The notes beneath the pieces were generated by a model, which was given only the letters and a program-made list of their open reading frames with translations, was not told where the DNA came from and made no database searches. The position numbers and the translations under genes are program-made. 64,000 nucleotides of DNA, from contig OX485803.1 of assembly GCA_950295325.1 (NCBI GenBank), forward strand, positions 60,653,554-60,717,553, read 5' to 3'. Source of the stretch: Polytrichum commune. Its lineage: Eukaryota > Streptophyta > Polytrichopsida > Polytrichales > Polytrichaceae. This document shows positions 20,479 through 64,000 of the stretch, one piece after another. Within the stretch, counting starts at the first letter, position 1. Every line of letters begins with the position of its first letter.

Positions 20479-20517
20479 CTTGAACCACAACCAAAAAAAC
20501 CCTCTCCAAACCGACTC

Positions 20518-36689: not shown

Positions 36690-38540
36690 CAAGCAACGCA
36701 TGTCAATTGTGAGTGTAACTTACTATACCATCTACAAGAAAGATAACCCATCCTCATAGCCCTAATTGCCACACAAAAACCACCCGCACAACATATTCAT
36801 ACTCACCGACAACTTGAACAACACATGTCTTACCAATAACCACATGTGACACCCAACATCCCAACACCACCACCAAACAAACTCCTCGTCACATCCATAG
36901 TCCACCTAGTAGCATGGACCCCACACAAAATCATTACCCAAAATGTAAGAGCACATACTGGAATCACCGGCAACAAAATCACAAACCAACTCACCAATGA
37001 AGGTACCATCCTTGTCAAACCAAACCCTACACCATACATTCACATTGCCCATACCATCACATACTGGCTAACCGGCATCCTCACTGGCGCACACAACGGA
37101 GCAATCCGCAAACTCCACGCATACATTAACAAAGAACACAAAACACTCAAACTTGCAATAACCAAAAATAAACTCACATATGTTGACAAGTGGCTCTCCA
37201 ACCAATAAATCCATCATAAACTCTCCAACCACTTATGGACGGCAAAAAACATCATTGATACACAATTCACACAAGCATTAAAACATTGGTATGGCCAATA
37301 CGCGGGGACCCAAAGGAAACACCTATTTTGGCCAACCACCTACCCCAACCTAGATTGCACATTATGCCCAAGTAACGTAATTGATACATGGTCACACCTA
37401 CTCACCCATTGCACCAACCATTACGAATAGCAAGACATAACAACGCAGTCCACCAAATCATACACACACACACTACATTTCAACAAACACACAAGATTCT
37501 ACACACTTGCAAGCGTTGGCCAATACAACGACTTACCACAAGACATCATCCATCCCCAACTTGTTACTTAGCTACTCATGTCACTCAACCCCATGCACAT
37601 GCCATGCCCTCCTCGAACCATACATCCTATGCACACAAGGAGCGCATACAAACAATCAGCTACCCATAACCCATGCCCAATCTCACACAATACAAATCAT
37701 TGATTTTACTTTTTGTCACAATAGATTCCCACTTGAAGCCAGAAGGAACAAACAAGACAAGCACGACCCTCTCATGAACACCCTCCAAAATCTAGGTTGG
37801 AACGTCAACCCCTCGTCACCATAATAATGGGCGTATGAGACGCAATTCATGAACACTCCATCAACATACTAGAACAAATACAAAAACCAAACCCCAAAAC
37901 CAAAAGACCAATGAAACAAATCCACCAAATTAAACAACCACAAGATACTTAGGGCGGGTTTAGACTTGGAGTCAGGGCTCAAAAATGGGCTGGGGTGCAA
38001 GAAATCCACTCCTCTCATTGGTAGAGAGGTTGGGACTCGCCTCTTCAAGTTTACACCATGAGTTGGGGCCAATTAACAAATAAAGTATTTTATTCATCAT
38101 GACAATGGCCTCAAGCCTTGGAAAAGAGAGCTCCCAACCTTGTGGACTCTTTCCCTCTGGTTGAGGCCATTGTCAGAGCTTTTATTTGCTTGTAGTAGTT
38201 TATTCTTTGAGCATTGAATAGGAGGGGAGAAATTCTAAATTTATTATACTTTAATCATTATCCATAGAATAGTTCATGAGTACGTTGGAACCTCTCATAA
38301 GCCTCTCATAATTGCAGCCTCCAAATGGCCCCAACCCCACCTAAATAGGTTTACACATGAAAGCAATGAATGGAGTTAGGTTACTTTCTTATTAATGGCC
38401 TTGGGGGCCCATTTGCATGCCACATGGGACATATTGGCCTTCGTTCCCAATGGCCTTGGCCCCAAATCTAAACAAGCCCTTAACATATCTAACCCTTAAC
38501 AAACAAGCCCCGGCAAACCCACCATAGGGACGCTGCCCTA
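36690..38540 (+). mobile_element. LINE remnant: RNase H, zinc motif and C-terminal part
   Basis: Broken plus-strand frames show a retroelement. ILTDNLNN near 36798 resembles the first catalytic strand of RNase H, and VRAHTGITGNK near 36945 its conserved histidine region. A C-x2-C...H-x3-H-C motif (DCTLCPSN...HLLTHC, 37351-37410) resembles the zinc motif of plant LINE reverse-transcriptase proteins. A final block (IIDFTFCHNRFP...LGWNVNP, about 37695-37824) fits the LINE C-terminus. Stops and frame changes separate these blocks, so it is dead. The reverse-transcriptase core is not present. A Tourist-like MITE is nested at 37952-38479. The plus strand is A/C-rich, as in the 5.2-8.0 kb stretch. 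Outer limits are approximate. Confidence 0.75.
37952..38479. mobile_element. Tourist-like (PIF/Harbinger) MITE, 528 bp, nested in the LINE
   Basis: The ends are GGGCGGGTTTAGACTTGG and, reverse-complemented, GGGCTTGTTTAGATTTGG, each flanked by TTA (37949-37951 and 38480-38482). The TTA target and the GGGCNNGTTTRG ends are characteristic of Tourist MITEs. Removing it restores a continuous A/C-rich LINE 3' sequence. Confidence 0.85.
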
Positions 38541-45080: not shown

Positions 45081-45108
45081 CACTACTAGGAAGCAGGGTC
45101 CTTTAGCA
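45081..45108 (+). repeat. CACTA-type terminus of island 1
   Basis: CACTACTAGGAAGCAGGGTCC followed by TTTAGCACA marks the sharp left edge of the GC-rich island. A near-identical terminus lies at 53603, and both have GGGTCCTTT and then CACA. CACTACNAGGAA is the classical CACTA terminal form. I could not find the opposite inverted end. Confidence 0.65.
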
Positions 45109-46450
45109 CATGAAAAGCACAATACACTGACAACCCGCATAGTGCTGCACAGATGTCGGAGACTGCGCAGGCGGTGCCAGCGACTGTGGACGCGGTGTCA
45201 TCCTGGACCAGTCCTATTATTGGCAAAACAAGGTGTGTTAACATTGTTGTGAAATTTGCTGTCAAATTGTGTTGTAAGTGTGTTGTACGTGTGTTTGACA
45301 ACCATAATTGACCGAGCGCATTAATTACATGTGTATGTGACATCAATACGCGGTTAATAATTGTATCCCTGACAACATGGGGTGCTGTAATGGTCGTCGT
45401 ATGTACATAGTACATTTAGCGGTCGTAGTTAATACACGTATTGCCCTACCTCGTTGTGCGCTGTTGTTTCATACAGCGTATTGCTATGTGTGAAATACAA
45501 ATGATTTTTGTAAATGCAAAATTGCAATGCAACCTGTCTGCGAACTTCAAATACCATGCATTCCCAATGCCATGCACATTCCCAACCATTGCAGATTTTT
45601 GTCTGGTTTTTTAGTTTCTCTGAGTTGCGCACAGTATATTCATAATACCAAAAAGTACAGCATGCATTAATGTTCATTTGGTTGCAAATGGGCTGCCATT
45701 CGTGCAAACAACTTTGCCATTGCTAAATCCTACACCATTCATGCTTCCTATCCGTCCTCCTGCACGCCTTCTGCCATTGCAGTTGTCTTTCCATTCGCAC
45801 TACCTCCCTGCTATACAATTGGGCTAGCTGCAACCACATGCACCTCATTGAAGACGTGGTCATCTTCCACAAACATGTTTGCTTACGGCCATGAGGAAAT
45901 CCTAGAAAATCTGGGCCTTCAAAAATCGTGCCTCCTGCACACGCCACATGGGTCTTCCTTGTGTTTGCAATGCACAATGATGCCAAAATTCATTGCGTCC
46001 CCTTCAGTATTCGAAAACTTGTTGCAGAAACGTCCGCTCTGCTTTTCTGCAGGTGGAATTCCGGTCTGCCTTCCCCGTCCGCACCGGCACATCCCTTGTT
46101 TTGCCACACTCCAACGACAATGCATACTTCCTTGTCAATGTGCATCGATTGTCCAGCACCTGCAGCGACATGAATCCAGCAGCCCCCCTAGACCCCCCCC
46201 CCCCCGGAATTTGTTGACGGACTTTCGTCCCCTGCTGCTGCGCCCAACTTCACATGCTATGTGCGGTGTGTGCCGAGTGGCAGCACAGACGCGAACAACG
46301 AATGACTCTGCGCACGTGCATTCACCTCGCTCCCATGTGTGGTTCTGCAAAACTGGAACCCTGTGGCGGCTGTCGCAAGCATCCTGTATTGCCTTCCCTT
46401 TGCCCTTCCTGTCATAGGCCCGTGCTTCATTGTGGACATGATTTCGGCAA
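45109..46450. other. Island 1, left non-coding part
   Basis: GC-richer sequence between the CACTA-type terminus and the 3' end of the minus-strand gene. Many overlapping frames are open on both strands because stop codons are rare here. I recognise none. A C13 run lies at 46193-46205. Confidence 0.4.
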
Positions 46451-49155
46451 TCATGCCTCAATTTCCTCCTCCACCAGGTACCGCGTTGACCACGTAACCC
46501 AGGTGTTGTTTGGTGCAGGTGGAGTTGCAAAGTGCTCTAAGTACTCGGGGCCTGCATTCGGATCCGGGTACATGACCTCAACATTTTTTTTGTGGACCTT
46601 TGTGACCTTCACCATTTGTTTCCCATCCTCGCACAATTCCATCAGTATGGTGCATCCGATGCCTCCCCCAATGTCCTGTAGTGGAGGCGCACTCCCCGCA
46701 ATTCCTTCGGCCACAGGTCTCCTCCCATTTCTTGGATATAACACCCAACATTCCGCCCCGCATCGCACCAACTCCTGCGCACATTGCGAACATACTAAAT
46801 TTCAGCACGAATTCAAGTGCTCATACCTCTCCATGTTCTTCCATGGAAACAAAACTCAAAAGCAATACACATGTGGCAGTGGGTCTGCTAGTCTGAGTGC
46901 TTGCCGTAGAGTGGTAGCGCGGATCCACTGCTGGTGGCCTCCTTACACGTGCGTTGCCCCGTCCTCTTCCCCTCATCTGGCCTCCTGTGTTCACAACACT
47001 GTTCTTCCCTGCTGCGGACTCTCCCCTCCCATGCATTGCGTGTGCCTCCTTCACCCTCCCTGGAGAGAAATTTAAATTAAGAGTTGCATGTTGTCGTCCT
47101 TCACTTGTCCCAATCTGCGGTCCTGCATCTGGCCCGTATTCACCAGAGCCCCCTCGTTCTCTCCTGGACGCCACCCACCCACTGTCCCCGTCCTCTGCGT
47201 CTGCTGCCACTTGCCTCACAGTGCTTTCAAACCCCGCCCATAACGACACAGGTCCCTCCCGTGGTGCACCCTGTGTGCACTCGACTGACATGTGCATGTC
47301 TTGAGTCTCCTCGTCTTGAGTGTCCACCTCCTCCACATCAAGCGGTCCTCTTTGCTTGCTCGGTGGCGACCACATTGCAGGCGATGTGTTCCCCTCATTG
47401 TACCAATCGCACGTATCGCCTTCCTCTGCAGAGGTTGCAATGTTCAACTGCATGCCCTCGTCCATGTACGGCTCTTCTATCTCCAGGATGGAGGTTGCTG
47501 CTGCGTGCCCTCCAAGGACGGGGTTTGCATTCTCCTCCCGTGCATGTTTTTTTCCCCTCTGGTCGGAGGTAGTCATACGTTCATTTCCATGTTCACCTCC
47601 ACTGCCCTCCCCTCTCCATGTGCACCACGTCGTCCCCTCCAATGCCGCGTTCTGCAGCACACCATCCGGTTCGGGTCCGCTTTTGCCCATCGTGCTAACA
47701 TGTTCTGCTATATTCTCCATGACCTCGTGCACGACCCCCAGGTCTTCCCTCACCAAGGACATGTCCCCCTGCAAGGTCGCGATCGTGTCGGTCAGCGACG
47801 CCAGCGTCTTCAATATGGCCTCCACTCCAATTTCCTTTTCAGCTGCGCCGCTGCTTATTGCAATCAACCTGTCTTGTGGGACATCGGTGGCGTCATCCAT
47901 GTTCGCTTCCACCACCCTCTCCCCCCCCGAGTCACCGGTCTCATACGAAGAGCATTCCCCGCAGTCGTCTACTGTTGTTTTCGTGTGCGTGTCCGCTGCC
48001 TGCAATGGCTGTTGTGCAGTGGTATCCCACAAACATTCTTTAATTGCGCGCACACACCCAGCAACGTTTCATGTGTTCCGTGCGTCATTATGCATGCTTC
48101 TGCATTATGCATCGCAACACATCCACAATACACATCTGTATTGTCTTCCACTTGTTGCCATAGACATTTACATCGCACAAATCATGCCTGACACATTCTG
48201 CATAGTTTTCGCTTACCTCTTCCTCCATTCTGACAGCCAGAGCTGTTCGACCCGTGTTGCTGCTGTTGTGGACCAGAGACCGCCTGCCAGCCATTTGTGC
48301 TGATTCCTCCTTGCAGACTTCTGTGGGCCACCACAGAATGAGCTCCTGCCATGCGTCCTCAGGACAGTTGTGGTGGCATTTCGAATCGCCGTACCAGAGC
48401 CAATGTGATTTCCAAACTGCCCTTGAACTGCGCAGATGGCCTGCAAGGTACTTTTCCACTCGTTTTGGATCAACCGGTGGATCGAACTTATACCATGAGT
48501 TCAGTTCCTGGTGAATCACTCCCTTCTCGAATGTGGAATAGCCCTTCCATCCCTCCTTCTTGAACGGCATGAGTTTATATGCAAGTTCCTTTGCTGCAGC
48601 GTGCCATCGCGCCTTCAGATGCGCTTCATTTTCTGCGATAGTGATTATGGGAGCCCTCCCCCCCGCAACTGAGTCCTTCATCTCTTTCGCGAACATTGCG
48701 TTCGCCTGCTTGTTTGTGCTCCTTGTTGTGCTCCTTTTTGCAGCCGAATTGCTCTTCGCTGCCTCTGCGACGTCGTTGCTCACGCGGGGGGTTGCCTTTG
48801 GAGGGGTGCATAGGTCCACCACATCCACAAGGTTCTTCCCTCCCTACGCGTCTGTTGTCACAAATTTGGCGCCCGCTCGTACGGCATAAGTGTAACCTTC
48901 AGGCAGGGCATCCCCTTCTTTGAGCGCAATAACCTTTGCACGCACCTCCGTCCTGTTCCCCGTTTTATCATGGTCGTTGCTTAACGCAGCGGGTTCCTGC
49001 GGTGCCACTACCACTGCCGCTGGCCTGCGACTCCCCTCTGTCGGTGTGCACCTACGGCTTCCTGCTCCGATGCATGCCCTGCTCGTGCTTGGCACCTGCA
49101 TTGCGTGCACTACCCACATGTGAGATCCAGACGCATTTGGCATGTCTCCCCCCAT
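46451..49155 (-). pseudogene. CACTA-associated transposon gene with Transposase_24-like domain, interrupted
   Basis: The inferred minus-strand structure is an exon 49155-48217, then 47999-46947 and 46774-46451, with phase-0 GT-AG introns (donors GAG|GTAAGC and CGT|GTAAGG; acceptors TTGCAG and GCGCAG). The frame is open except for one TAG at 48846-48844. A start after the TAG (first ATG in NAMFAKEM) is possible. Residues about 70-204 after the TAG (WHAAAKEL, FEKGVIHQEL, EDAWQELILWW, GRRSLVHNSSNTGR) resemble the plant En/Spm-associated domain Transposase_24 (PF03004). The middle exon is acidic with a heptad-like stretch and a MRGRGRGNAR tail. The last exon has CWVLYP...MYPDPNAG...WVTWSTRYL, similar to DUF8039-type domains of plant CACTA proteins. 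Such proteins are usually TnpA-like partners rather than the catalytic transposase. I see no DDE transposase here. Confidence 0.6.
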
Positions 49156-52100
49156 TCTCGCATGTTCTCCGGAACTTGTCTGTGGGAAGGCGATGCCACT
49201 GCTTTATTCCACTCCATTTCCATGCGCCGTGTACGTCCATCGACATCGACATAGTGCTGTGATTTACCTTGCCATTTCCGGAGCATTTGTCTCTGAGGCC
49301 TTCTACACCATTGTCCTCCCAGCCACATCTGCCACTCTCTGCCGCAGTCGTCACTGGACACATATAGCCCATTCTTACATTGCAATGCACTACCAAAAAG
49401 TTCAAACCCACCCAAATGAAATTATGCAGGGGGGGGGGGGGAAAGCTTGCTTGTGTCGTCGTTCGTCGCTGCTGCTGCAGCGCGCATTGGTCTCTTGCCC
49501 TGCACATGTGTATTGCATGTATCAGCGACCCTATTAGAAACCACAACATGAAAACCAAATATTTTGCAGTGGTATCTGCTTCACTCACCTTTGTGTACGG
49601 GGATCCTGCAGTCGAGCACCCCCTGTATGCATTCCTCTCCGTCGTAGCCTGGTGGCTGGTAGTTCCTGCCCCCGTTGGCCCCTTGTCAACTGTGTTCGCT
49701 CTCACGGCCTGTAATCCTGGTGGTCTACTGGTATCCATCGTGTTTTGCCTTCTCCTCCCCCAATATCCAAGTCTCCCCAAATTCCACAGCGGCTACTTCC
49801 CCGCCTCAAAATATGTCTGCACCTTCTTTGTTAGAATTTTGTCACTGCGTTTTACATTTGCATTGTGCCAACTATGGCCCATTGACACAACATCTGCCTC
49901 AGAGGCACAGGTGCCTCTGTGACAGCGTGTTCAAACATGCGCAGAAAATGTTTCAATGCTCCCATGCACAACATATTCGGCAACCAAATGCCCTCTTCTG
50001 TGCGGACCCTCACATTTACATTCCAGTGCCCAACCCATACTGCACCGTAACTACAGAAGACCAGAAACAAATATGCACGATTGCATGGGGTTGGACTGCC
50101 CCCTGCGGACTGCACACAATGCACACCACATACAACACAACACCCTTGCACGGCCGCCATGAAGCTTTTGGCAACTGCTGGATGGCAAAATGCATGTTTC
50201 TCGTACCTTTGCCGGTACGGGTGCCAAACACCGGCAGCAAACCACCGTTCAGTGTTGCTTCACTTCGGATTCACGTGTGCTTCATGGCAGAATTGGCAAT
50301 TGGACGGTTATCGTCCATTCTTTGGTTGAAACGCTTGTGCACATTTTACCCTGTCTTCACAATACATGTCACCGCCACACATGCCACGTTATTGTGGCTG
50401 AATTTGTTTATAGGCCTCCGACACTCTACAAGATTTTATGCATGAAAGTATGCTTCCCAACATTGCAATCATATATCAACAAGGTTGTTTCCCCCAACTA
50501 TAATCACATGTTATGCCAAATCCGCCACACCCTTCCAGCATGCGCATGGCACATGCGTGCCGCCCAGTCCCAGCCGGGGGCCAACACATGCACACCCCAT
50601 TCAGTGTGCTCTTCCATTGTTGCTGCCAACTGCCTCCCGTGTCGACTGCGACTTATGTGCACATACAAGCGCTCCCGCACAATGTGGCCCTCCAAACTCC
50701 ACGATTTGAATACATTCCAATTCCAATATGGAAGGCTGTTCTGCGTGCCTGCAGCTGGGCGCCAACCACATCCACCCAAATCCGTGCACAGATATAATAC
50801 AATGACAAATCAAATGCACAGTTGCATCACCTATCCTTGTGGCAACATGCCCTCATAACCCCGTGCGTCCTCTCCAACCCCTCCAAACAGCTTCGACACG
50901 TGAACGCCCCGCTTCACTTCACATTTCCCGATTTCACGATCTCCTACACAACATCTCCCTCCATGCACAACGTTTTCTTTTCCCCTCCCATGGTGTCTTG
51001 CCCTTGCCTCCTCCTCCTGTTTACACAAACACAAATATCATTAGGCACAAACATACAATTACACTCGTCATTTTGCAGCTTCCATGGCCGTCTCCGTTTA
51101 TAACATTCACATCATCATTTGTATGTCCACTTAAACCCCCCACCGTTGGCCATATTCTTATAAACAAAACCTTGCCCTTCCTTGGTACCACACAGTCCCA
51201 GTGCATAGCAGACACATAGACTTCAAGCAGGCAAGGTTCATGTGTGGTCGCAGACCACATCCCCCTCAGTTCCAAGATCTCGCCTGTGAATCTTGGGTGT
51301 GGCGTGACAATGTGCGTCCCGCAGTACTGTGTGCGGGACTGCTTCGATCCTAGTTGCGCAACACCTGCTTGATCGCCGCGATTCTTGCTCCTCTGCTGCT
51401 TCGGCTAGCTCTTCACCACCCTTCTGTGTGTTGCCGTTCGTTCCACACCTTTCTCTATACTGCGCATGTGCCCACGCCTCTGTGGAGGGCAATGTTTACC
51501 AACAACAACTCCACCAACCACTGTGATAGTCCATTGGCGGACATGGTTGTCCACGCACCTCACAATCGCGCTTATAGTAGCTACTAGGCGTCATGCTTGC
51601 CAGCGCGATCTGTTGCTCAGAGCAGTCCATGCACTAAAACGATTCTGATGTGATAGTATTTGTGTTCTCCTTGCACACTTTCACATACATCTGCCGCAAT
51701 GCAAACCTCCTTGTGCGCTAGCAACGTTGCCTGCTGCAAGAGAGTTCTGTGCACCGCCGTTTTCTGCGTGGCTTGGCCCAAAGTGCCAGCAACATGGGGT
51801 GCGCACCCCAATCCCAACTGCTAAACGTTGGTCGCCGTTTGGGACATGCCGTGCCATCTGGGCAGTTGGCAGCACATACGCCATGTTTAGCCCGTCTCGG
51901 CGCCTAGGCTGTAATCGCCCTTGATATCCAGTATGGGCCCTCCACGATTGGCAATGCCACTTGGGTTCTCTGCACCACCAGAGTGGCGGCTCTGCAGAGT
52001 GTGTACAGTGTGCACGCGTGTCCCGCCTGTCAAGTACGCACCATTAATATGCGTATAGATCCAGTAACTGAGGCTGCACAGTTCCTCCACTCCTAGAAAC
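49156..52100. other. Island 1, upstream part
   Basis: GC- and CpG-rich sequence upstream of the minus-strand transposon gene. Long open frames on both strands overlap each other and none shows a domain. Further 5' exons or the promoter may lie here. A G13 run is at 49429-49441. Composition falls back to the AT-rich background near 52.1 kb. Confidence 0.4.
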
Positions 52101-52451
52101 ATCGAATACCTAACCTCATCATCCTCAACAAAAAAAAATTAGAAAAAACTACCACCCTATCCAACCCTGAAGATATATAGAGCCACATATTGCAAAAGAC
52201 CCCAATACATAGCTACGCTCTTACATAAGCAAACACTCAAAGTATTTAGTATATCACCAATCAGATGATGCATAAGATGCATGAGTTCTACATACTGATG
52301 AATGATTTTTTTTCATTCAAGTGCCAATAAGCACATGCAACCTTTCTCTATTCTATCTTGTTTCAATTTGGCGACGTACAACAACAAAGTTTGTAGGCGC
52401 AAACAAATCTTATATAGTGTGTCCACTACCTATTTGTGCTATGGAACAAAG

Positions 52452-52475
52452 AGTGTGTGTGTGTGTGTGTGTGTG
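52452..52475. repeat. (GT)n microsatellite
   Basis: About twelve tandem GT dinucleotides within AT-rich sequence that separates island 1 from the next CACTA-type terminus. Confidence 0.9.
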
Positions 52476-53602
52476 TTGAGGGGTGGGAGCACACTTGCTC
52501 AAAATTGCCATTTTCAAATTGCTTTTTTGGACCTATTTATGAGATTATTGGGCATGACATGCGCCCAATGTTGGAGAGTTCCATAAAAAAGTCATACCAT
52601 GTTTAAACAATGCATGTTCATTATATGGGGCTCATACAATATTCTTCAACAATTCCTCCTGACTCGAATCTCTAATTCTCTTCGTTTGAATGTGAGTGAT
52701 GCTGAATGAAACACGGATCTTTATCTCTACAATTCACACATGCTAGGAACTTGGAGGCATGTAGCTAGGATATTTGTAAATTGGCAATTGGAGGTGTGTA
52801 GGTGTGTAGGTGTTAGGTGCAAATGCTGCCGTGTGACCATATGAGCACCCCATTTATAGTAAGAGAACATGAAGTGTGTACTTGATGTATCTACAATATA
52901 ACATTGTTGAGTTTCATGGTTGTGTTACATTCAATATTTGGTTTATGACATGGGCCTCCGTCGTCTTGCTTCGTATGAAGAATCTTAAACTTTATGAAGA
53001 GATTCGTGTTGGTATGAATAATATGAATAGTGCCAATATTGTCAGTATGGAGTGTGGCCGCATGAACAATGTATCCTACACATACTATTGGAATGTACAA
53101 TGATTCTTGCGTGCATGCCAGGAGTATAGCTGCACCCAAAATTCCAAAAGTCTGCATCAATATATGAATGATAAACATATAATAGTATTGTTTTGGGGGC
53201 CCGCATGTTCTGCTTGCCATATTTTGTATTCAATGTAACTAGCCCACATGGTTGAATGACGTTATCAAGTAATCATTTTTCCATTTCAGTAAATAACGCC
53301 CATCATAACTCTGCATGGAAACGTTGGCTGCACAAAACCTTTGTCTTGGATCATCGTCCAAAATGGACCTCTACACCGAAAGCTAATGAACGAACTTTGA
53401 ATCTAAGGGCCCGATCGCACCAAGTGGTGTTGGGCCGGGACTGTGCTGTAAAGCTTCCTGCCTGGAAGCTCCAGTCCGGGTATGGTGCTTACCCGGTGCG
53501 TCAGCAGGGTCCAAGACGGGGGGCCGCACCGGGCGGATATGCAACGGAGAGGCCCAAAAAATCATCCATCCCCATCCATCGCTACAGACGAGGCGATGGC
53601 TT
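52476..53602. other. Spacer with a GC-rich patch at about 53395-53600
   Basis: The spacer is AT-rich until about 53395, then about 200 bp are rich in GGCC and CCGGG words. The patch ends at the CACTA-type terminus at 53603. It lies inside a 180-codon open frame (53256-53798) that I do not recognise. Confidence 0.35.
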
Positions 53603-53630
53603 CACTACTAGGAATGGGGGTCCTTTCCCA
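53603..53630 (+). repeat. Second CACTA-type terminus
   Basis: CACTACTAGGAATGGGGGTCC followed by TTTCCCACA closely matches the terminus at 45081 in the same orientation. It would be the left end of a separate element extending to the right. No inverted partner was found in the window. Confidence 0.6.
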
Positions 53631-53785
53631 CACCAGAAGGACATGGATTTGCCAATTGATATCAAGCACGACACGTGTCCTAGCTGGTCCAACCACTGTG
53701 CAAAAATGTTCAGACTATGTGTGCAATTTAGTATATATACAACAAAACGAGATTATGCAACAATACCGAGTGATGTGATTGGTGC

Positions 53786-53812
53786 GACCAATACCTAGCC
53801 GAGGTATTGGTC
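53786..53812. repeat. Hairpin, GACCAATACC stem
   Basis: GACCAATACC and GGTATTGGTC pair perfectly around a 7-nt loop. Related hairpins lie at 55855-55885 and, degenerate, near 56198-56226. Confidence 0.7.
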
Positions 53813-53882
53813 ACAATAGTCACTACATTATGAAATATTGCATAACCTTTTTTCGCTTAGTGGCTACACACATACTGTCACC

Positions 53883-54387
53883 AGGTGTAGCACTTGGGGC
53901 CCCAATTCGTACACTCGGGGCCCGAACTGCTACAACTGGGGCCCGAGTTGAGACACTTCGGGGCCCCAATTCCTGCACTCGGGGCCCGAAGTGCTACAAC
54001 CGGGGCCCGAGTTGAGACACTTCGGGGCCCCAATTCCTGCACTCGGGGCCCGAAGTGCTACAACCGGGGCCCGAGTTGAGACACTTCGGAACCCCAGGTG
54101 TAGCACTTGGGGCCCCAATTTCCTACACTCGGGGCCCCAAGTGCTACAACTGGGGCCCGAGTTGAGACACTTCGGGGCCCCAGGTGTAGCACTTGGGGCC
54201 CCAAATCCTACATTTGGGGCCCGAAGTGCTACAACCGGGGCCCGAGTTGAGACACTTCGGGGCCCCAGGTGTAGCACTTGGGGCCCCAAATCCTACATTT
54301 GGGGCCCGAAGTGCTACAACCGGGGCCCGAGTTGAGACACTTCGGGGCCCCAGGTGTAGCACTTGGGGCCCCAATTCCTACACTCGT
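53883..54387. repeat. GGGGCCC minisatellite, 21-22 bp units in higher-order arrays
   Basis: About 23 consecutive units of 21 or 22 bp each begin GGGGCCC. Four unit types recur: GGGGCCCGAGTTGAGACACT, GGGGCCCGAAGTGCTACAAC, GGGGCCCCAATTCCTACACT and GGGGCCCCAGGTGTAGCACT. They are arranged first as a 64-bp triplet and then as an 85-bp quartet. The array lacks stops in several frames on both strands, giving spurious open frames. Because 64 and 85 are not multiples of three, the frame shifts at each repeat, which argues against coding. It starts about 280 bp inside the CACTA-type terminus at 53603, where CACTA elements carry subterminal repeats. Confidence 0.93.
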
Positions 54388-55854
54388 CCACATTATATAT
54401 ATTGAATACAAAATGATAACCTATAATTTATCCCAACACCTTCACATACAATCCATAATCCCCCAAATCCTTGAATTTCTGAATACTTTGCTGTCGTCTT
54501 TGATTGGTAAAAACGTTCCCTAATCTGAACTCCTACAAACTCACCTACCAGACTATAATCGCACTTTTCATATAGTAACTCATTTTGTGCTTCGTCCTCC
54601 ACATGTCTCAAGAATAGTGTACTCACATCTCTCTCGGACTAACACTTGACCTCCCAATTCCTAACATTTCATATGCCTTCCACATGTCTTGGATCATCCA
54701 TACCTGGTTTTTCTCCTATACAACAGGCCCCACATCTTCATCTGCTTTGAGAACGTAACTCCCTCTGAATCTCACTTCACAGTGCTCTTTGCTTCTACAA
54801 CAATGGAATTGGCTCTGCACAGTTTAGTCGATATGGGCACTCCAACCTCTTTGTCTTCGAGCAGTGGCAAATTCCAGTTTCTCGCATTTTATGTAACATC
54901 GGCTGCCTCGGCCATTGGTTTGACTGAGATATTCCAATATGAGCAATCATTCAATCGCCACCTATGCCCACTGGTTTTACGGACATGTTTAGGTTTTAGT
55001 GTTTACTCCGCTCTTCATTGATAGTTTCATTTGTTCGCTCTTGCATTAATACTACATGTCTCCTTCTACACTATGTTGAAGTGTTATTAATTCACAAAAA
55101 AATGGTTTGGCATGTACCGATTTTATAAAGCATATTGTTGTACTCTTTGACAATGACTGTCACAGGCTTCTGTGGTCACTAGTTCAGTTGCCTCTATTTA
55201 TATCAACCTCCCTCACATTCAGAATTCCAAATGAATCCAACAACAATCTTCCCATTTCGCAAACATACACTCTTACATTTTGAAATGGTCCCCATTCTTC
55301 TCTTATATCTCAAGTTCGCATACAACTTACTCATAACTCTTAACACAATGAACTGCATTTACCACGAAAAAACGAACATTTACAATCTCTCACACACGAA
55401 AAAATATAGTTAGCCATTACCATGGATGTGTAACTTGTATTCACAATAACATTATGCTTGATCCAAAATCTCCAATCGCACAATCACTGCAGCAATTGCT
55501 AATTTATTTATAGACAATAATTGAGCTCTAGCCCTCACACAAAGCACGTGTTGAGGGAAAACATATTATGAGTTTTAGAATGCACTGAAAAGGTTCTAAG
55601 AATGTTGTGTATTTCTCTCCTCCATTTGCCTGCTCGCTGTCGGGGGGGCGGGGCCAAGATGATAGATCTAATTGCCTGCACTCAACCTGCACTGAACTTG
55701 CACATGAGATAGATAGATACATTCAATTTGCCAAACATGAACAGTGTGATGATTTTCGCATACCCATGGCAGTGCCGTAAAGTCTTCGCACATGGTGCCT
55801 TGGACAAACACTTTGAATGAAATGTATGGAAGATTATGGAATGTTGAAGCTAAT
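54388..55854. other. No gene recognised
   Basis: AT-rich sequence after the minisatellite. A short GC-rich tract lies near 55640. Open frames are short and unrecognised. Confidence 0.4.
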
Positions 55855-55885
55855 GTGACTAATACCCTCGCTGGGTATTAGTCAC
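55855..55885. repeat. Hairpin, GTGACTAATACCC stem
   Basis: GTGACTAATACCC and GGGTATTAGTCAC pair perfectly around a 5-nt loop. The complementarity continues more weakly outward (CATTAG, ATTCCATAAT). The right half plus about 70 bp downstream, ending AATATTATTTTATTGT, recurs directly at about 56210-56300. Confidence 0.75.
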
Positions 55886-56209
55886 ATTAGTCACATAATT
55901 CCATAATGTTCCATAATATTATTTTATTGTATTGCAAAGCAAAGCATTCCCATGATAGACATGATACAAACCAACACAACAACATAAATATTAGGGCATT
56001 CTAACCGTTTGTCAATGTAAAGTTAAATTAAAACTTAATTTAACCTTAAAATTTATAAAAATAAGTCACAAAATCCAATGTTATAAGAGCTTGTAAAATT
56101 GAAAACTCTTTGATGTGGCAACTACCCCAAAAATGATCACAAACTTAGGCCTCGGGGTGTGGGAGTTGTGCAAGATTATATGTTGTTGTCATTAATGTGT
56201 CTATTACCT

Positions 56210-56300
56210 TGCCTGGGTATTAGTCATATTAGTAACATAATTCCACAATCATCTAAAATATTATTTTATTGTCTATTAAATTGCATGCCCACCATTCATA
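56210..56300. repeat. Direct copy of the segment right of the 55.9-kb hairpin
   Basis: GGGTATTAGTCATATTAGTA followed by ACATAATTCCACAAT and AATATTATTTTATTGT matches 55873-55934 with a few differences. The left hairpin arm is degenerate here. Confidence 0.65.
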
Positions 56301-57659
56301 TGATATAGTTATTTTGATTGCAATTCAGTATGAAATATTTATTGTGCATATGTGTCCTTAAAATAGAATATGTTTTCCTCCATCATATTTCACCATCATG
56401 TGTAGTGTGGAGTCTTTTGCGACCCCTCAACAAAATGCTATTTCAATGCATTTATATTAAAAAACATGAACATCATGTATAGTACCACATATATAGTAGT
56501 TGATGCATTTCATGCGCATGGCATGTGTTTACACATAGAGTCTGCATTTTGGGTACATGTGTTGCACAAGATTATGGAATTGGTCGAATAAAGCCATGCC
56601 TCTCTTTTATTATACAAATAAACATGGAAACTTCAATGCGTGAAATATGGAAGGGTACTTAGGTGGGTTACAGAGTTTGTTTTGATGCCATAATTAACTT
56701 GAACGACCCGCATTGGTCCAGTGTGCACATATGGGAGCATTGTTACTTCACAATAACCACCAACTAATAGGGGATATATTTTTTTATGCACCGAAAAGAT
56801 ATCGTAAGTGACAATTCCCATCCTTCAAATTCTAGAACTTATTGTGTAACTTTAGTTCACATACTTCTCAATGCCCTTATGCTCAACCCAATCTTTGTGA
56901 ATAACAACATCTTAAGCATGCTATCCATCCCTAAATCATTTGAATTTTTTTGTATATTGAGTTCATATTGTGCTATTTTTTGCGGGAAGGCTTGGATATT
57001 TCTCTTTTTCAGTTCAACCCACCACATATTGTGGAAGTACAGAAAGTATTCTAAAAACCATTATGACACATGTTTGTACTTGCTAGAATCGAATTGCAAC
57101 CCATAAGGTGGAGCTCAAGCTTTGAGATGCTATATTTAAATTAGCAATTCTCGGTGTTTTGAGGTTAGTTAACATTAGTTCGAACCCAACTTGAATAACA
57201 AAACGTAAACATTTTACAAGATATTTGGTGCCACTTATTATTCACAACTATGGAATACTATAACTTTATATTCTAAGATTGTTTTTTTTGTATGGAGTTG
57301 ATTGTTTTAGAGTAAAATATAGCATAATACATATTAAGAATATGTATGATGCTTACGTTTAAAAAAGGATAGGAGATGATGGCAAATATAGAACCCATTT
57401 GTGTGCCAAAGCGAACAATATTTGTTTGTGAATATTTGGGGCCTATATTGATTAAATTCATTGTATTTATTTGTGTGCCAATTTTGCATTTGATTTCACA
57501 TTCCCGTAAGACTAAAACTTTCCAAAAATTGCGACTTTTGCATCCATTCACAAAGTTTGCAGCCTCCAAAGGCAGGCGGTCGATGGGCAATCATTGGGAG
57601 CTTCCATGGCATTATGGAGGTCGTTAAATCCCATCAATTCCCATAATTTCGTGTTCGTC
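56301..57659. other. No gene recognised
   Basis: AT-rich spacer before the second GC-rich island, with only short unrecognised frames. Confidence 0.4.
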
Positions 57660-59141
57660 GCACATCAACTGATGTGATGTCTTGGTGGAGTGTTCTCATT
57701 ACAATTAACGTCGACAACCTCAAGGCTTGTGCCTGCACCTGCCCTCACACTGCCATCGCGAATATGTCTACAGCACTTGTTCGCACAGTTCCGGATCTCG
57801 GCGCATACACGAGCTGCATCCCATGCAGGTTCGAGTTCCACTTTACAATTGCGAAGCATTCAGACTGAAGGTCCCACAACCTCGAACCTCCACCCATTTC
57901 TTGGGTTTTTGCTTTTCCCCACACTGATTCTCATGAGTTCCCCACCACCTGCATGATGTTGTCGCCTAAATCCTATTCTGCTGTTGCGCTTGTGTGTTCG
58001 TTTGGTTTTTTTTTCTCCCATCGGTTCATGCACGTTTGCCAGAGCGTCCTGGCTCACATCGGAGTTGCTCTTTCAGTCGTCGCCTCCAGCTGGACCCTCC
58101 AATGTATGTCGTTTGCCTTACTGGTTTACCAACCACCTTCTTCTCATGAAGGCACTGTGTATCTCCCTTCTCTTGAACTGACAAGCTAACCCGCCCCCTC
58201 ACGCATCTCGCATTTGCTGCACCCCAGTTTTGCGATACAGTTGTGAGCCGGTCGTCTAGGTTTTCGCAGGTGGGATTCTTAGGTGGTTCTGATAATTGCC
58301 ATGATGCTGCTAGTTCGTGATTGCGAGAAGCGGCGAGGGGGATGACTGAGGCGCAGGAGATGCTAGACTAGTACTTCAGTGTTTTCACTCCAGTGTTGGA
58401 CGTCGGTGTTTGAGCTTTTCTTTATTTTCTGTTTTTCTGCATAGATTCCTACAACAACATGAAATTCGGAGTATTGGTGCAGATTTTTAAGTTACTTGTG
58501 TCCGTGGCATTGCTTGGCCAACTAGCTCTGTTCATGCATGGGTCAAGCAGTAGATTCAAGATTAAACAGTCTGGATGCGTGAATCCCAGAACTAACAATT
58601 GAATATGAAGTTATGTTTTGTTTGCTATTCACCAAACGTGCAGCAGCTCTAAACGTGATGCATGCATAGTCCTCCTGGAAGTATGTGATGCAGATGCAAT
58701 ACAGAAGTCAATAAATTTGGGGTGGGTGGTTTGCAGGTGACTACTTCGTGTGTTTGGTGCCAAACAACATGGCAACACCCGACACGCGTGTCGTCCGAGA
58801 ACCTGCCCGCCATTGTCATGGGGAGCCTGTGTCCGCACATATATGGCAGGGTGTGGGGGAGGGGCCATTCCGCGCGCACGGGCGCAAGAAACATAAAGGC
58901 AGAAGTCCGCGCGTCCAACAGTCTCCGGACAAACACAGATTGGGGAAACTCCCTCGAATGCCCGAGGCGACTGTCCCCCACCCTTATACTTCATCCCTAC
59001 ATAGCAATTGGTTTTTTGCAATACATTGTTTGTCATCAGTGTGTGTGTGCAAGTTGTATTTTGTGAAGGCCGAGCATGCCATATTGCCTGCCATTCACAT
59101 TGTACGTGACATTATAGTTTTATATCCTTGTGCAGAGGGAC
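57660..59141. other. Island 2, upstream part
   Basis: Composition rises to GC- and CpG-rich. I looked for a counterpart of the Transposase_24-like exon of island 1 and found none. Upstream exons or the promoter of the plus-strand gene may lie here. A possible splice acceptor (TTGTGCAG) ends at 59135, so the first exon may not be at 59142. Confidence 0.35.
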
Positions 59142-60968
59142 ATGAATGTTGCACATGCACGGAACTCTCAGTGTGAGCCTCACTACGGCTATGGCTATGT
59201 CCCAAATCCATATCTACACCCATACCACGATTACGCGGCACTGACGCAATCTGCATATGGACCACCACAACCAACACTGGCTCCATATCCGTATGGCGGA
59301 TATGGAGCACCACACCATAAAGGACGAAGACGCGGGTTGCAGGAAACGTCGAGCTCCCCCCAGAGTAGCAGCAACAAGTCTGCACATTTAAACGAGTTGG
59401 AGACAGAGTGCGCGAATGCAACTGACGTCAAAGGAGCTGCGGATGTCTTGCAGACATCCAACCCTGTAACAGCGGGGACTGCAACTGCAACGAAGGACAG
59501 CGTGGCTTGTCAACAGGAGTCGCGGCAGGGTGCAACATCCAAGGGGGCTCCGGATGTGGTATGCACTCGTCTTTGATGATTACTTGTGTAGGTCGCATAA
59601 ATTGAAAGCAAAACCAATCATGCGCAATTGTGAATGTAATTGGCGTGTCATTTTCCACAACATGGCCATTTCGCATGTAACAACATTAGCACAATGCAAG
59701 CCCAAGCTGCGAGTGATGTTGTAATGACGCCTTACATATGCGTATGCAGCACGAAGACGACGAGCAACCGCTCTCCCAAGTCTTCCGCGTTGCGACTCCG
59801 CAAGGGCATTGCAATACTTGTGGACAACCAACTAAGGCCAGCTGGCAATCAGAGGCAGAGAAGATGCTCGGGATTCTCGACAAGAGGGTCGCAATAGTTG
59901 AGGATAGACTGGGGAGTGTAGTGGATGGGATAGCCAAAATTATTGCGGAATTGGGTGCACGAAGTCATGGATGTGGAAAGGACGTCGAAGCAAGGACATC
60001 CGCACACATACGCAACATGTCACACGCACCTGTGCATGATGCCACAACAACCCCCTTGCAGCAGCAGCAAGGAGAGAGCCCAAAACAGGCGGGAGGCATG
60101 GATGCAGAGAAGCCGTCTTCTCCACGTCCTGCGAAACAAAGTAATGCGAACGATGTCGATGATCGCGGAGCCATTTTGGACCACCCAATTGTTGTGGGCG
60201 ATGACGCGTCGAGCTCTGGTGGGAACAAGGGGTGCAACATGGAAGGGAGCCCGAGCAAAGGGGCAATCATCTCAAAGCGCGTGCATGCCAATCCGCGGCA
60301 GCGCGTCGTCCCTTTTGCAGGCAGCCTGAACGGGCCGCAGCCTCGCGTGGCACCTGTTGTTGCACGCGAAGGCACTGCTTTCTATGTTGCCCCGCACGCG
60401 CCTATGCAGAAGGACCCCTCTGGGTATGCTGGCGGCACAGACTCTGGACGAACGCTGGAACCCGCTTTCGTGCCTCCAGTGTTGGAGCCAAAGAGATCCG
60501 GAGTGAGCATTTTTCCCAACCTAGTGAATATTGTGTTTGGTATTGCATGTGCACTGTTGGCTGCTTTGTATGTATTGTTCCAGGTTTCACCGGCACGCAT
60601 CAAATGTTTAACACTGACTGGTGTTTTCTCGCACACAGGTTCCACTGAGGCACAACACCAAGTGTTGGGTCTTGCACCCAGGATTCAACAAGGAGGTCGT
60701 GGGAGTGGCCAAAGCGGGTGTGCACAACAAGTCCCGCAGCCACCAGAAGCATTTGGTATCCGCATGCAGAGACGGGGAGCAGTACATATTGTTCAAAAAA
60801 ATCTTCCGCCACGACACTCCACTCCTCTACCCCGATGATCCTTGCATTGGCCAAAACAAAATGTGCGATGCCGTTGTATGGAATTCTGGGAGGCCCGAGA
60901 AGTGGGTGCGATGGGCGTGCAAGTACTTGCACGAAGTAACAGAGGAGGGCGCAACGGACTGGGTATAG
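59142..60968 (+). CDS. CACTA-related three-exon gene sharing the C-terminal domain of island 1
   Basis: Inferred exons are 59142-59558, 59750-60502 and 60639-60968, all joined in phase 0 (donors GTG|GTATGC and GGA|GTGAGC; acceptors ATGCAG and ACACAG), giving about 499 residues with no internal stop. The N-terminal exon is rich in Tyr, Gly and Pro (YGYGYVPNPYLHPY). The middle exon starts with a CNTCG motif and a predicted coiled-coil-like stretch (ILDKRVAIVEDRLGSVVDGI), then a low-complexity region. The last exon (KCWVLHP...GEQYILFKKI...LLYPDDPCIG...KWVRWACKYLHEV) aligns with the last exon of the minus-strand gene at 46.5 kb, and the intron just before it is in the same place and phase. This domain resembles DUF8039-type domains of CACTA proteins. 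No Transposase_24-like or catalytic transposase domain is visible. Expression and the true start are unknown. Confidence 0.55.
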
Positions 60969-63800
60969 GTGTTTTGGTTTTTGTAGTGCAAGCCCCTTGA
61001 CGTAGTACTGTGGCATGTATAGTTCAAGTATAGTGCCAAAACGGAGATTCGATATGTTGGATGTTCAAGTGTTGTGGTCGTACAAATCTGCGAGTAAAAA
61101 AAAAAACATTTCGGCATAAGAAAAATGTCTTCAAATATTGACTACGTTGTACAAATGCGTTTCATGTTCAAGAGGTTGGAGTATACGAACATGGCAGTTC
61201 ACAAAAATTGAAGAATGGGAGATGCTTACCTGCTTATTTACCTTTATTTGGATGTATTGAAGAGGTGCAATGTTATGAAACAAATTATAGTCATGAAAGA
61301 AGTTCCACACATTGGCATAAACAATTTAGTATATTATATCAATATATATATTGGGAAAAACAATAAAATGGTGCGTTTGGGGGGCATAGTCGCCAATATG
61401 GGCAGCTGTGACCCTTTCGTGGAGCAGACCGGTGCGATTTTTGTCTTCGCAGAGATTTGCAATTCAATTTTCATGGTCCTGGGCACAGTGCAGTCGGTGA
61501 AGACTGCAAAAGGCATTATTTTATTATGATTTTATTTGCTTCAGGCCCCCAATGTGCTTGGAATTTTGAGTTTCTTGGCCAACCAAACAATGGCATGTGG
61601 GAAAGTGTGTTTGCCACCATCATGTGCCGGCATTGCCCAACAAACTCGATATTGTATTTCATGTGAGGAGGCTGCACTGAATTTAAGGAAAACAAGATGG
61701 TCGCCGGGGAGGCTTCAGTGCCCTCATATACAAGAATAAGCTTGTGGTCTGCCACAAACACCTTCATCGATGGTGTATTAGTGGTGTCATTGCAATGCGC
61801 TTATATTAACATGTCATACATGACACAATGTAAATGATATGTGTACCCCTCATGGTGTTCGTAAAAAATATTATTGTCACCATACCGTGCAAACTGTATT
61901 TGACATGTCCAATAACTGGACCATTTTCCAGGAACCCGTCCACTGGAAAGGGTTTTTTTTTTCACATGTCCGTGGACGTGCTGGGAACCTTCCAAATAAT
62001 CACCAGTGCAGTGCAGCCTACCTCTGCCCACAGCCAGGGGAAGGGCAGTCTGTCCGATACTGTGGTGGCAGGTGTAGGTGCAGAGATGGCAGATCGGGGC
62101 AGCTGACGTGGGTGCACCCAAACAGTGGTTGTGAGGCGTGAACGGCCTCCCCATCGCAACGACGGCTGCTAAGGTGCCGCCATCAATCTTCTCAACCCCG
62201 TCCACCATGTTGCCGGAGGTCCAATGCTCCGTGCAAGCGACACAATAGCATTCATGCGCCAGAAACACAGGATTGTGTGTGCACCATCTTCTTGGGCAGC
62301 AGTTCCCACTAGGGGATAGTGGTCACATGGCCGTGGCTTTTGTTTCATGCGCGTTGGTGGTTTCTGCGTCAAGGGTTTTCTGTATTGTTGCCATTGAAGC
62401 TCCCTATCACCAATGATGCTTTGCAGGTGCAGAGGGGATTGTATATCGGGAGCCAGGTGGATGTAGAACATAGTGGGCGTGGTGCCAGGAAGCAACACAC
62501 TGTGCATCGCAGCACTGATCCCACCATCCAGGTGGTTGTAGGATATAATCCCCTTGCATATACGATTTCCTCGCACCTGCACCAGTGTGTGCATCGCACA
62601 ACCCACGAAGAGGGTGAGCCATACACAAGCGTGGCGTGTGGTGCACGTGCACAACAACATGTGTCGTGTAGCAGAAGTGCTTCGATTGGGCGTGGGGAGG
62701 ACACATGTGCATGGTTAGGAAGACGAGGTCGACGGGCGAAGACGTGCGCCAAATTCTGCGTTACTCTGTGACAGTGTGGAATGTTAGGGTTTGGGTGGCT
62801 GTTGTGCAAGATGGGCGCCAACATTTTTGCCGCTGGCACATAAGAAATAGGGGAGGGACAGGCGTTGGGGAACCAGATGCGAACGTCCGTTGGCACAACA
62901 CCTGTGCCAACAGCAAATGTGGAGGCGTTGTCTGTATGCAAGCACAAAGCACAACAGATCGGGATATGGGGAAAGAATACCGCTATGCACAGGGATGGGG
63001 AAAGTGAAGGCGATGCTGCTGGTGGGAAAAAAACGAAAAGTGGTGCGCTGTGAATGTGCATGGAAAGCATGACTATGGCGTGGGCAGTGCACAAAGTTGC
63101 CCGTCCTACGACTCGCAGTGGAGGGGGATAGTGGGGACTTAGCAACGCGAATATTTTGAATCAAACGGCTTGAGGTGAAGTGCCACTGCAATCGCGGGGG
63201 GGGGGGGGGGCAGGCATCCAAGTTCGAAAAAAAGAATAGGAAGGACGCAAGAAACTCTGGTTTTCAATGTGAGCAGTGGCAGGTATATTCCCAGAAGATC
63301 TGACACTTACTTGTACCGTGCTAGTAACGCGACATGGACCGCGGCAGAGGGGCGCGGGTGCACCCCACAACAGATGCACAAAGGATAGAGCTCAGGGATG
63401 CAAAAATGTGGCGCCGCAAATCCGCACGACATGGAGGTTCAATGCAGACGAGGAGCAGGTGCCCATGCACGCTCTGTATGTTCGGCAGACCATTGTTGCG
63501 CGCAACACAAGCCCGACATCTACGAGACTATGGGAGACATCCACAGAGGAGGCTCCAGGAGCAGGTAAACACGGACACATAAACCACAATGTGGAATTCT
63601 GTGGTGCTGGTATGTTTTGCTTTGACATGAGCAGAATGATGCCCAAACATAATACATTCCAATTTGGTACAGGCAGACTGTCGCATCCATTCAGAAATGT
63701 TGCGTGAATGTTTGTGTCAAACTCATGCATGCAGTTGCGCAGTAATAAAAATGGAGGAAAAGTACAGGTACATATGTACCATGTTGACATGAGGCCTGTA
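60969..63800. other. Island 2, downstream part
   Basis: CpG-rich in places, with overlapping open frames on both strands and no recognised protein. A G15 run, the longest in the window, lies at 63196-63210. The phrase AATACATTCCAATT followed by GGCAGACTGT near 63650 has a relative at about 50705 in island 1, which suggests that the islands share non-coding sequence too. Confidence 0.35.
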
Positions 63801-64000
63801 TGTGTAGTAAAAAACTAATGGAGTTGCTGGAATTCAAGTTTGTAAGGATTTAAGAAGTCCCTCGGTGGATCATCTTTAAACATTTATCCTAGAAGAAGTG
63901 TGGCTTTCTTTGAAGACATATATATATGTCTATTACCACAGACGTGGTTGAACGTGATGGAGTATGATCATTGAGCAAAAAAATAGTTATTTTGGGAGTG
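63801..64000. other. AT-rich right edge
   Basis: Nothing recognised. Confidence 0.4.

Follow-up and report, generated by a model that had tools for sequence, protein, structure and literature searches.

A very large CACTA-type transposon of Polytrichum commune carries two accessory genes with apparently paralogous last exons

We analyzed 64,000 nucleotides of the genome of Polytrichum commune (GenBank assembly GCA_950295325.1, contig OX485803.1; C1:60653554-60717553), hereafter the window, together with the 10 kb beyond its end (L048), whose extended coordinates continue the window numbering. The source genome comprises 407.8 Mb in 64 contigs. A CACTA element of 24,494 bp (45081-69574) lies at the end of the window, with its final 5,574 bp beyond it, in L048; it holds a gene for a tnp2 transposase and two further genes, here called gene 1 and gene 2 (Table 1). 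Its left end reads CACTACTAGGAAGCAGGGTCC and its right end, as reverse complement, CACTAGTAGGAAAGGGGTCC, and the target-site duplication (TSD) GTT is present on both flanks. A second complete element (C3:54155927-54179500) is 97-98% identical to it from 45080 through the window end, the match stopping at extended 69574, except for array and indel differences at ~54.0-55.9 kb. The break points of this match carry CACTACTAGGAA and CCTACTAGTG; the C3 copy has the same break bases and the TSD ACT on both flanks. A divergent copy of 21,313 bp (C5:23194152-23215464) also has CACTA ends, one of them detected only with a looser pattern (CACTANNAG), and ATC on both flanks. A 3-bp TSD is present in all three copies with both ends read, and all three have terminal inverted repeats (TIRs) that start with CACTA. 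In total, long stretches were read at five further loci (C3, C5, C6, C1a and C1b), chosen for having both genes and thus giving no estimate of frequency; the tnp2-side end of the element was read in the window, C3 and C5, not in C6, C1a and C1b.

The transposase was identified just past the window edge, in two open stretches of 505 and 237 residues. Transposase_21 (PF02992) matches at L048:612-2126 with E=8.4e-65 and 218 bits, against a cut-off of 28.6, and DUF4218 matches in the tnp2 region with E=2.9e-34. Other CACTA transposases have TAD and DUF4216, according to the part of the source available (PMC8978399); neither was found among the five open reading frames (ORFs) scanned past the window, where the 5' part of the tnp2 gene is not delimited. 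The assignment to the CACTA (En/Spm) superfamily rests on the CACTA ends, the 3-bp TSD and the tnp2 transposase, the strictness with which subterminal repeat arrays should be demanded being unsettled. Because a single pair of TSD-flanked ends encloses both gene 1 and gene 2, they are parts of one CACTA element. An earlier note, made from the letters of the window alone, had called both genes CACTA-related, and their place inside an element with CACTA ends, TSD and tnp2 bears this out; it had also put them in two antiparallel islands, which do not stand as separate units. Two separate nested CACTA elements were rejected as the principal interpretation, since the C3 and C5 copies hold both genes within one end pair. 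An internal terminus-like sequence at 53603, present in C3 too, is a trace that would favour nesting; no second end matching it was found with the patterns used.

Table 1. Features of the CACTA element, in window coordinates (extended coordinates beyond 64000)
Feature	Position	Strand	Basis or remark
CACTA element	45081..64000 in window, on to extended 69574 (L048:5574)	.	ends, TSD, C3 copy
Gene 1 last exon (shared C-terminal domain)	46451..46774	-	107 aa + stop
Gene 1 middle exon	46905..47999	-	end 46827 instead if the GT donor is used, not the GC donor
Gene 1 exon with weak Transposase_24-like region (~48211-48825)	48217..49203	-	upstream limit not settled
Internal sequence resembling the gene-1-side terminus (CACTACTAGGAATGGGGGTCCTTTCCCACA)	53603..53642	+	pattern search
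Array with 22 GGGGCCC anchors, in units of 21-22 bp	53891..54386	.	between divergent genes 1 and 2
Gene 2 Tyr/Gly/Pro-rich exon	59142..59558	+	relatives keep residues just upstream
Gene 2 second exon (fast-evolving)	59750..60502	+	alignment of copies
Gene 2 last exon (shared C-terminal domain, conserved)	60639..60968	+	109 aa + stop
tnp2 transposase	L048:612-2126 + L048:2529-3239 (extended 64612-66126, 66529-67239)	+	Transposase_21, DUF4218

In its predicted parts, a weak Transposase_24-like region and a C-terminal domain, gene 1 resembles the usual second gene of CACTA elements. The Transposase_24-like domain attributed to it earlier is only partly borne out: a PF03004 match is present (E=0.046), but its 14.3 bits fall below the curated Pfam cut-off of 28.7, and 'Transposase_24-like' is used here as a label for that reason. 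When five trimmed rows were scanned, the window's own gave no match and one of its four relatives did (E=0.083). Four other copies share 52-64% identity with the window over the Transposase_24-like region. The nonsense codon that the note had placed in gene 1 is there, one in-frame TAG (~48844-48846) in the Transposase_24-like exon, and this stop probably deprives the window copy of full autonomy. The C3 gene 1 is open at this codon, and its own TAG sits beyond the likely donor. The donor of gene 1 is GTAAGC or GTGAGA in two relatives (C5 and C1b); at the aligned position the window has GC, and 78 bases downstream lies a GT donor that fits too.

The three exons read of gene 2 in the window are open, and the gene has no Transposase_24-like region, both in agreement with the note; at E<=0.01 this region was not found in any gene-2 locus (L001-L016, with ~1.5 kb upstream of the last exon covered in each). 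A further 5' exon before 59142 is likely, because residues conserved in relatives just upstream of that position suggest an acceptor there. The last exon is 99% identical in the second complete element (C3) and 64-70% identical in eight divergent gene-2 rows. The second exon is 27-39% identical to that of the window in nine of the 11 divergent loci that gave a match, two of these nine also having short better-matching pieces, and closer in L003 (56%, 59 residues) and L004 (60%, 81 residues).

The last exons of the two genes, of 107 and 109 residues, are 26% identical and align at CW.L.P, a YP.DP region and W..W..YL. A profile-profile comparison of five gene-1 with nine gene-2 rows extended over 100 columns with a probability of 99.1, E=1.1e-18 and a score of 102.6, against scores of 6.8-14.7 in column-shuffled controls (n=20). 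The intron before the last exon is in phase 0 in both genes and ends eight codons ahead of the conserved CW, so that both the homology and the shared intron position proposed in the note are upheld. As read by eye, the acceptor AG is retained in nine of 10 gene-2 copies (not in L003) and in all six gene-1 copies shown, and the GTGAG/GTTAG donor of gene 2 lies at or within three bases of the aligned place in seven of 10 copies. These comparisons indicate that the last exon of gene 2 is an ancient paralogue of that of gene 1. A Pfam scan of the shared domain in 14 rows at E<=5 gave nothing beyond chance (best E=0.072, unrelated families). DUF8039, which the note had also named, had no match in eight window ORFs (E<=1) or in the 14 last exons (E<=5), the presence of the model in the library being unchecked, and no mention of it was found in the literature searched.

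The ratio of non-synonymous to synonymous substitution rates (dN/dS) was obtained by a home-made Nei-Gojobori count, unchecked against PAML. For the last exon of gene 2 it is 0.11-0.20 in nine of nine comparisons of the window with L003-L011, values made uncertain by a dS of 1.2-1.7. Pairs with low dS gave 0.42 (0.19-0.87) for L003-L004 and 0.41 (0.24-0.69) for L005-L007; the ratio is 0.23 (0.10-0.43) for L008-L009 and 0.07 (0.03-0.14) for L010-L011. The second exon of gene 2 gave 0.51 (0.35-0.74), 0.21 (0.12-0.43) and 0.43 (0.29-0.62) in three pairs. For gene 1, the last exon has ratios of 0.13-0.21 in five comparisons and the Transposase_24-like region of 0.14 and 0.11 in two, with two more yielding no value due to saturated dS. 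Between the window and C3 the ratios are 1.31 and 1.60 for the two larger exons of gene 1 and 0.44 and 0.40 for the first two of gene 2, whose last exon has one non-synonymous and zero synonymous changes; these counts are too small to separate the genes, and every computable interval includes 1. The divergence between these two copies is similarly low for gene 1, gene 2 and tnp2. On these codon counts, the last exon of gene 2 seems to be under purifying selection.

A tree built from 19 last exons places gene 1 (five rows) in one group with support 100/99 and gene 2 (10 rows) in another with support 83/97, recovered in 80% of the bootstrap trees; within both groups, C6 and C1b stand next to each other. 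The two gene lineages probably separated before the subfamilies of the element did. Because of the dN/dS values and the separate groups in the tree, gene 2 is probably old in this lineage and has probably travelled with the element.

A search of the genome with the last exon of gene 2 gave at least 82 matches, 21 rows at >=52% identity and another 61 at 25-40%, many of which coincide with gene-1-type last exons or sit ~2 kb from Transposase_24-like matches, as checked in part. The 21 rows were joined into 17 loci, and dropping a 42-residue fragment (C2:3455762) left 16 gene-2 loci, 10 of them open over the last-exon domain. The gene-1-type last exon has 79 matches in the genome and the Transposase_24-like region 101; the neighbourhood test used the first 31 of the former rows and the best 22 of the latter. 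Within this set, gene-1 parts lie <=30 kb from nine of the 16 gene-2 loci, and from eight of the 10 open ones, whereas the mean under random placement was 0.10, with no more than 2 in any of 2000 draws. Five of the six copies read (window, C3, C5, C6 and C1a) have tnp2, gene 2 and gene 1 in that order, the outer two genes, tnp2 and gene 1, being directed outward. Gene 2 shares the orientation of tnp2 in three of these (window, C3 and C5) and that of gene 1 in the other two (C6 and C1a); C1b has the C6 arrangement of gene 2 and gene 1.

Other loci of these gene types were also observed. At C1:68768707-68770017, less than 1 kb separates a gene-1-type last exon, interrupted by three stops, from a gene-2-type last exon on the other strand; this is a rearranged or deleted copy. 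A CACTA-type family (C2:5139094, C6:20276558 and C7:5482605 among others) has 14 matches of identical score, which suggests that it multiplied recently; its members carry a gene-1-type gene with both parts ~2 kb apart, and no gene-2 locus lies beside those inspected. A sequence of 1.5 kb at L047:2586-4088 (C1:71857586-71859088), bounded by one terminus of each type and flanked by TAA on either side, is apparently a non-autonomous relative immediately past the C1b element.

On this evidence, gene 2 is an accessory gene carried by the element and not a captured host gene. Known CACTA elements pair a tnp2 transposase with a second protein that binds subterminal repeats, and TnpA is described as a positive and negative regulator, as far as the available part of the source goes (PMC2613891). 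By analogy with this tnp2 and TnpA system, gene 1 may be an end-binding helper and gene 2 its partner or regulator, and we consider it likely that the locus is one CACTA transposon with tnp2, a TnpA-like gene 1 and a gene 2 that shares a paralogous last exon with gene 1 and serves as such a partner. TNP2 would cut and join at the CACTA ends; gene 1, in the manner of TnpA, would bind element DNA and draw the ends together; and gene 2 would pair or compete with gene 1 via the shared C-terminal domain, as a regulator or a second DNA-binding partner, its fast-evolving N-terminal part perhaps setting the choice of target. Gene 2 may have the regulatory role that the note had raised, inside the element.

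It is important to note that a number of results weigh against this interpretation. TnpA-type proteins bind repeat arrays at CACTA ends, and the terminal 1.4-1.6 kb of the window element show only scattered 2-3-copy repeats and no subterminal array. The middle parts of the two proteins have no detectable homology in the profile comparison (probability 0.9 percent over 10 columns). At E<=1, no PDB sequence matches the shared domain or the Transposase_24-like region, and a structure model of the shared domain (two sequences) had a mean pLDDT (predicted local distance difference test) of 44 with strands only and was not used. In the tree, the gene 2 group is moderately supported, long branches are flagged and the root is unsure. 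In C3 and C5 alike, an in-frame stop interrupts gene 2 in the first of the exons read, and in C1b the 16 kb upstream of gene 2 yielded no tnp2. For seven of the 16 gene-2 loci, no part of gene 1 lies within 30 kb, and gene 2 lies beside eight of the best 22 Transposase_24-like loci and beside none of the other 14; because of these gene-2-only and Transposase_24-only loci, gene 2 is either dispensable in some places or frequently lost.

The space between the 5' sides of genes 1 and 2 contains the GGGGCCC array, which starts 288 bp inside the terminus-like sequence at 53603. Its cores are spaced by 21 or 22 bp, with one gap of 43; the core was the anchor of the search, so that its invariance, though not its spacing, is by construction. 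A length of 21 bp corresponds to about two turns of DNA. Tandem Repeats Finder counts 23.3 units in the window and 16.3 in the near-identical C3. These are the only two of the six copies read with a regular 21-bp array of this core: none was found in C5, C6, C1b or, over a scanned length of 30 kb, C1a, whereas C1b has a different ~21-bp array and C6 one of 17 bp. Gene 2 could accordingly be imagined as a transposon-encoded activator or anti-silencing protein, VANC- or TnpA-like, that binds element DNA such as this array. Its conserved C-terminal domain and fast-evolving remainder, together with the position of the array and its differing unit number, would suit such a function; the accessible sections of two papers report that VANC has conserved and variable regions and targets that are often tandem repeats (PMC5735166), and that Spm activation by TnpA correlates with demethylation (PMC10398659). 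However, the array is missing from four copies and the VANC domain DUF1985 is not matched, the gene-2 ORFs giving nothing better than E=0.4 and the last exons only the unrelated families noted above, and we regard this explanation as rather doubtful. A further version, which we hold to be unlikely, is that a CACTA lineage split its second gene into two partners, one of which lost the Transposase_24-like region and became a regulator or anti-silencing factor on the helically phased GGGGCCC array.

Gene 2 might instead be a functionless by-product, a duplicated and truncated gene 1 that is passively carried; the missing Transposase_24-like region, the stops or fragmentary state of several gene-2 copies and the many related loci without gene 2 would fit this, but the low dN/dS that divergent copies show in the last exon, the 10 of 16 loci open over the domain and the conserved splice sites make it quite improbable. 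The note had also raised the chance that gene 2 is a co-opted host gene, or on the way to becoming one, and its three open exons beside a gene 1 with a stop in the same element speak for that. Against it, gene 2 lies with gene 1 and tnp2 inside a complete TIR-bounded, TSD-flanked element, its last exon recurs nearly unchanged in a second complete element, and the three genes have similarly low divergence between those two copies. A co-opted gene would be freed from its element, without TIRs and in single or few copies; gene 2 occurs at 16 loci with other copies decaying. High copy number with decaying frames, which the note itself had set against co-option, was thus found, the 16 loci being a moderate number with 10 open over the domain. 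Which gene decays differs between copies, as would be expected for transposons but not for a co-opted gene. Host co-option of gene 2 was rejected on element context and copy number, and we give it hardly any credence.

We compared the element with other CACTA systems and with VANDAL, which belongs to another superfamily (Mutator-like). En/Spm of maize and Tam1 of Antirrhinum, with tnpD/tnpA, are alike in their CACTA ends, 3-bp duplication and tnp2-type transposase, with a second DNA-binding protein there, in the available part of PMC2613891; in contrast to both, the element here has three genes, two of them paralogous second genes, gene 1 and tnp2 point outward from the centre on opposite strands, and no end repeat array was found. 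Tgmt* of soybean (20.5 kb) is likewise a very large CACTA element with 13-bp imperfect TIRs and tnp2, but it is described with a single complex gene that yields both tnp2 and a mosaic transcript, and no paralogous pair is described in that same portion of the source (PMC2613891). Jozin of Chenopodium likewise has Transposase_21 and DUF4218 in ORF1, and its variable ORF2 has Transposase_24, in some types, and/or Peptidase_C48, according to the sections available (PMC8978399); these extra domains are within ORF2, whereas here there is a separate third gene and the Transposase_24 match is below the cut-off. VANDAL elements of Arabidopsis (VANA, VANB, VANC) likewise hold a transposase and two further element genes, with tandem arrays, and an accessory protein with conserved and fast-evolving parts, as gene 2 here, in what could be consulted of PMC5735166; they differ in that gene 2 has no DUF1985 match and that VANC counters silencing, an activity that is hypothetical for gene 2.

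A large autonomous-type CACTA element is a known kind, and the pair of anciently duplicated accessory genes appears to be new to it. No precedent for paralogous second genes in CACTA elements was found in the literature searched, which covers few subscription papers, and nothing useful was found on mosses, liverworts and charophytes. To a specialist, the paralogous pair and the outward layout would probably be unusual yet within the superfamily. Elsewhere in the window, a further terminus-like sequence (CACTACTAGGAG) lies at 6519; an ORF at 19657-20517 (-) presumably resembles the N-terminal part of UDP-glucuronate decarboxylase (UXS), and a C-rich ORF at 36840-37208 (+) is one that we take to resemble the RNase H end of a LINE (long interspersed nuclear element).

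The locus illustrates a trap for annotation, in that an intact frame without a transposase domain in a very large element mimics a host gene when the stretch under study stops before the transposase. If gene 2 works as an accessory protein, the CACTA toolkit exceeds a transposase and one helper, and a natural pair of helper paralogues would let one ask which of them binds DNA, which regulates, and whether one counters silencing like VANC.

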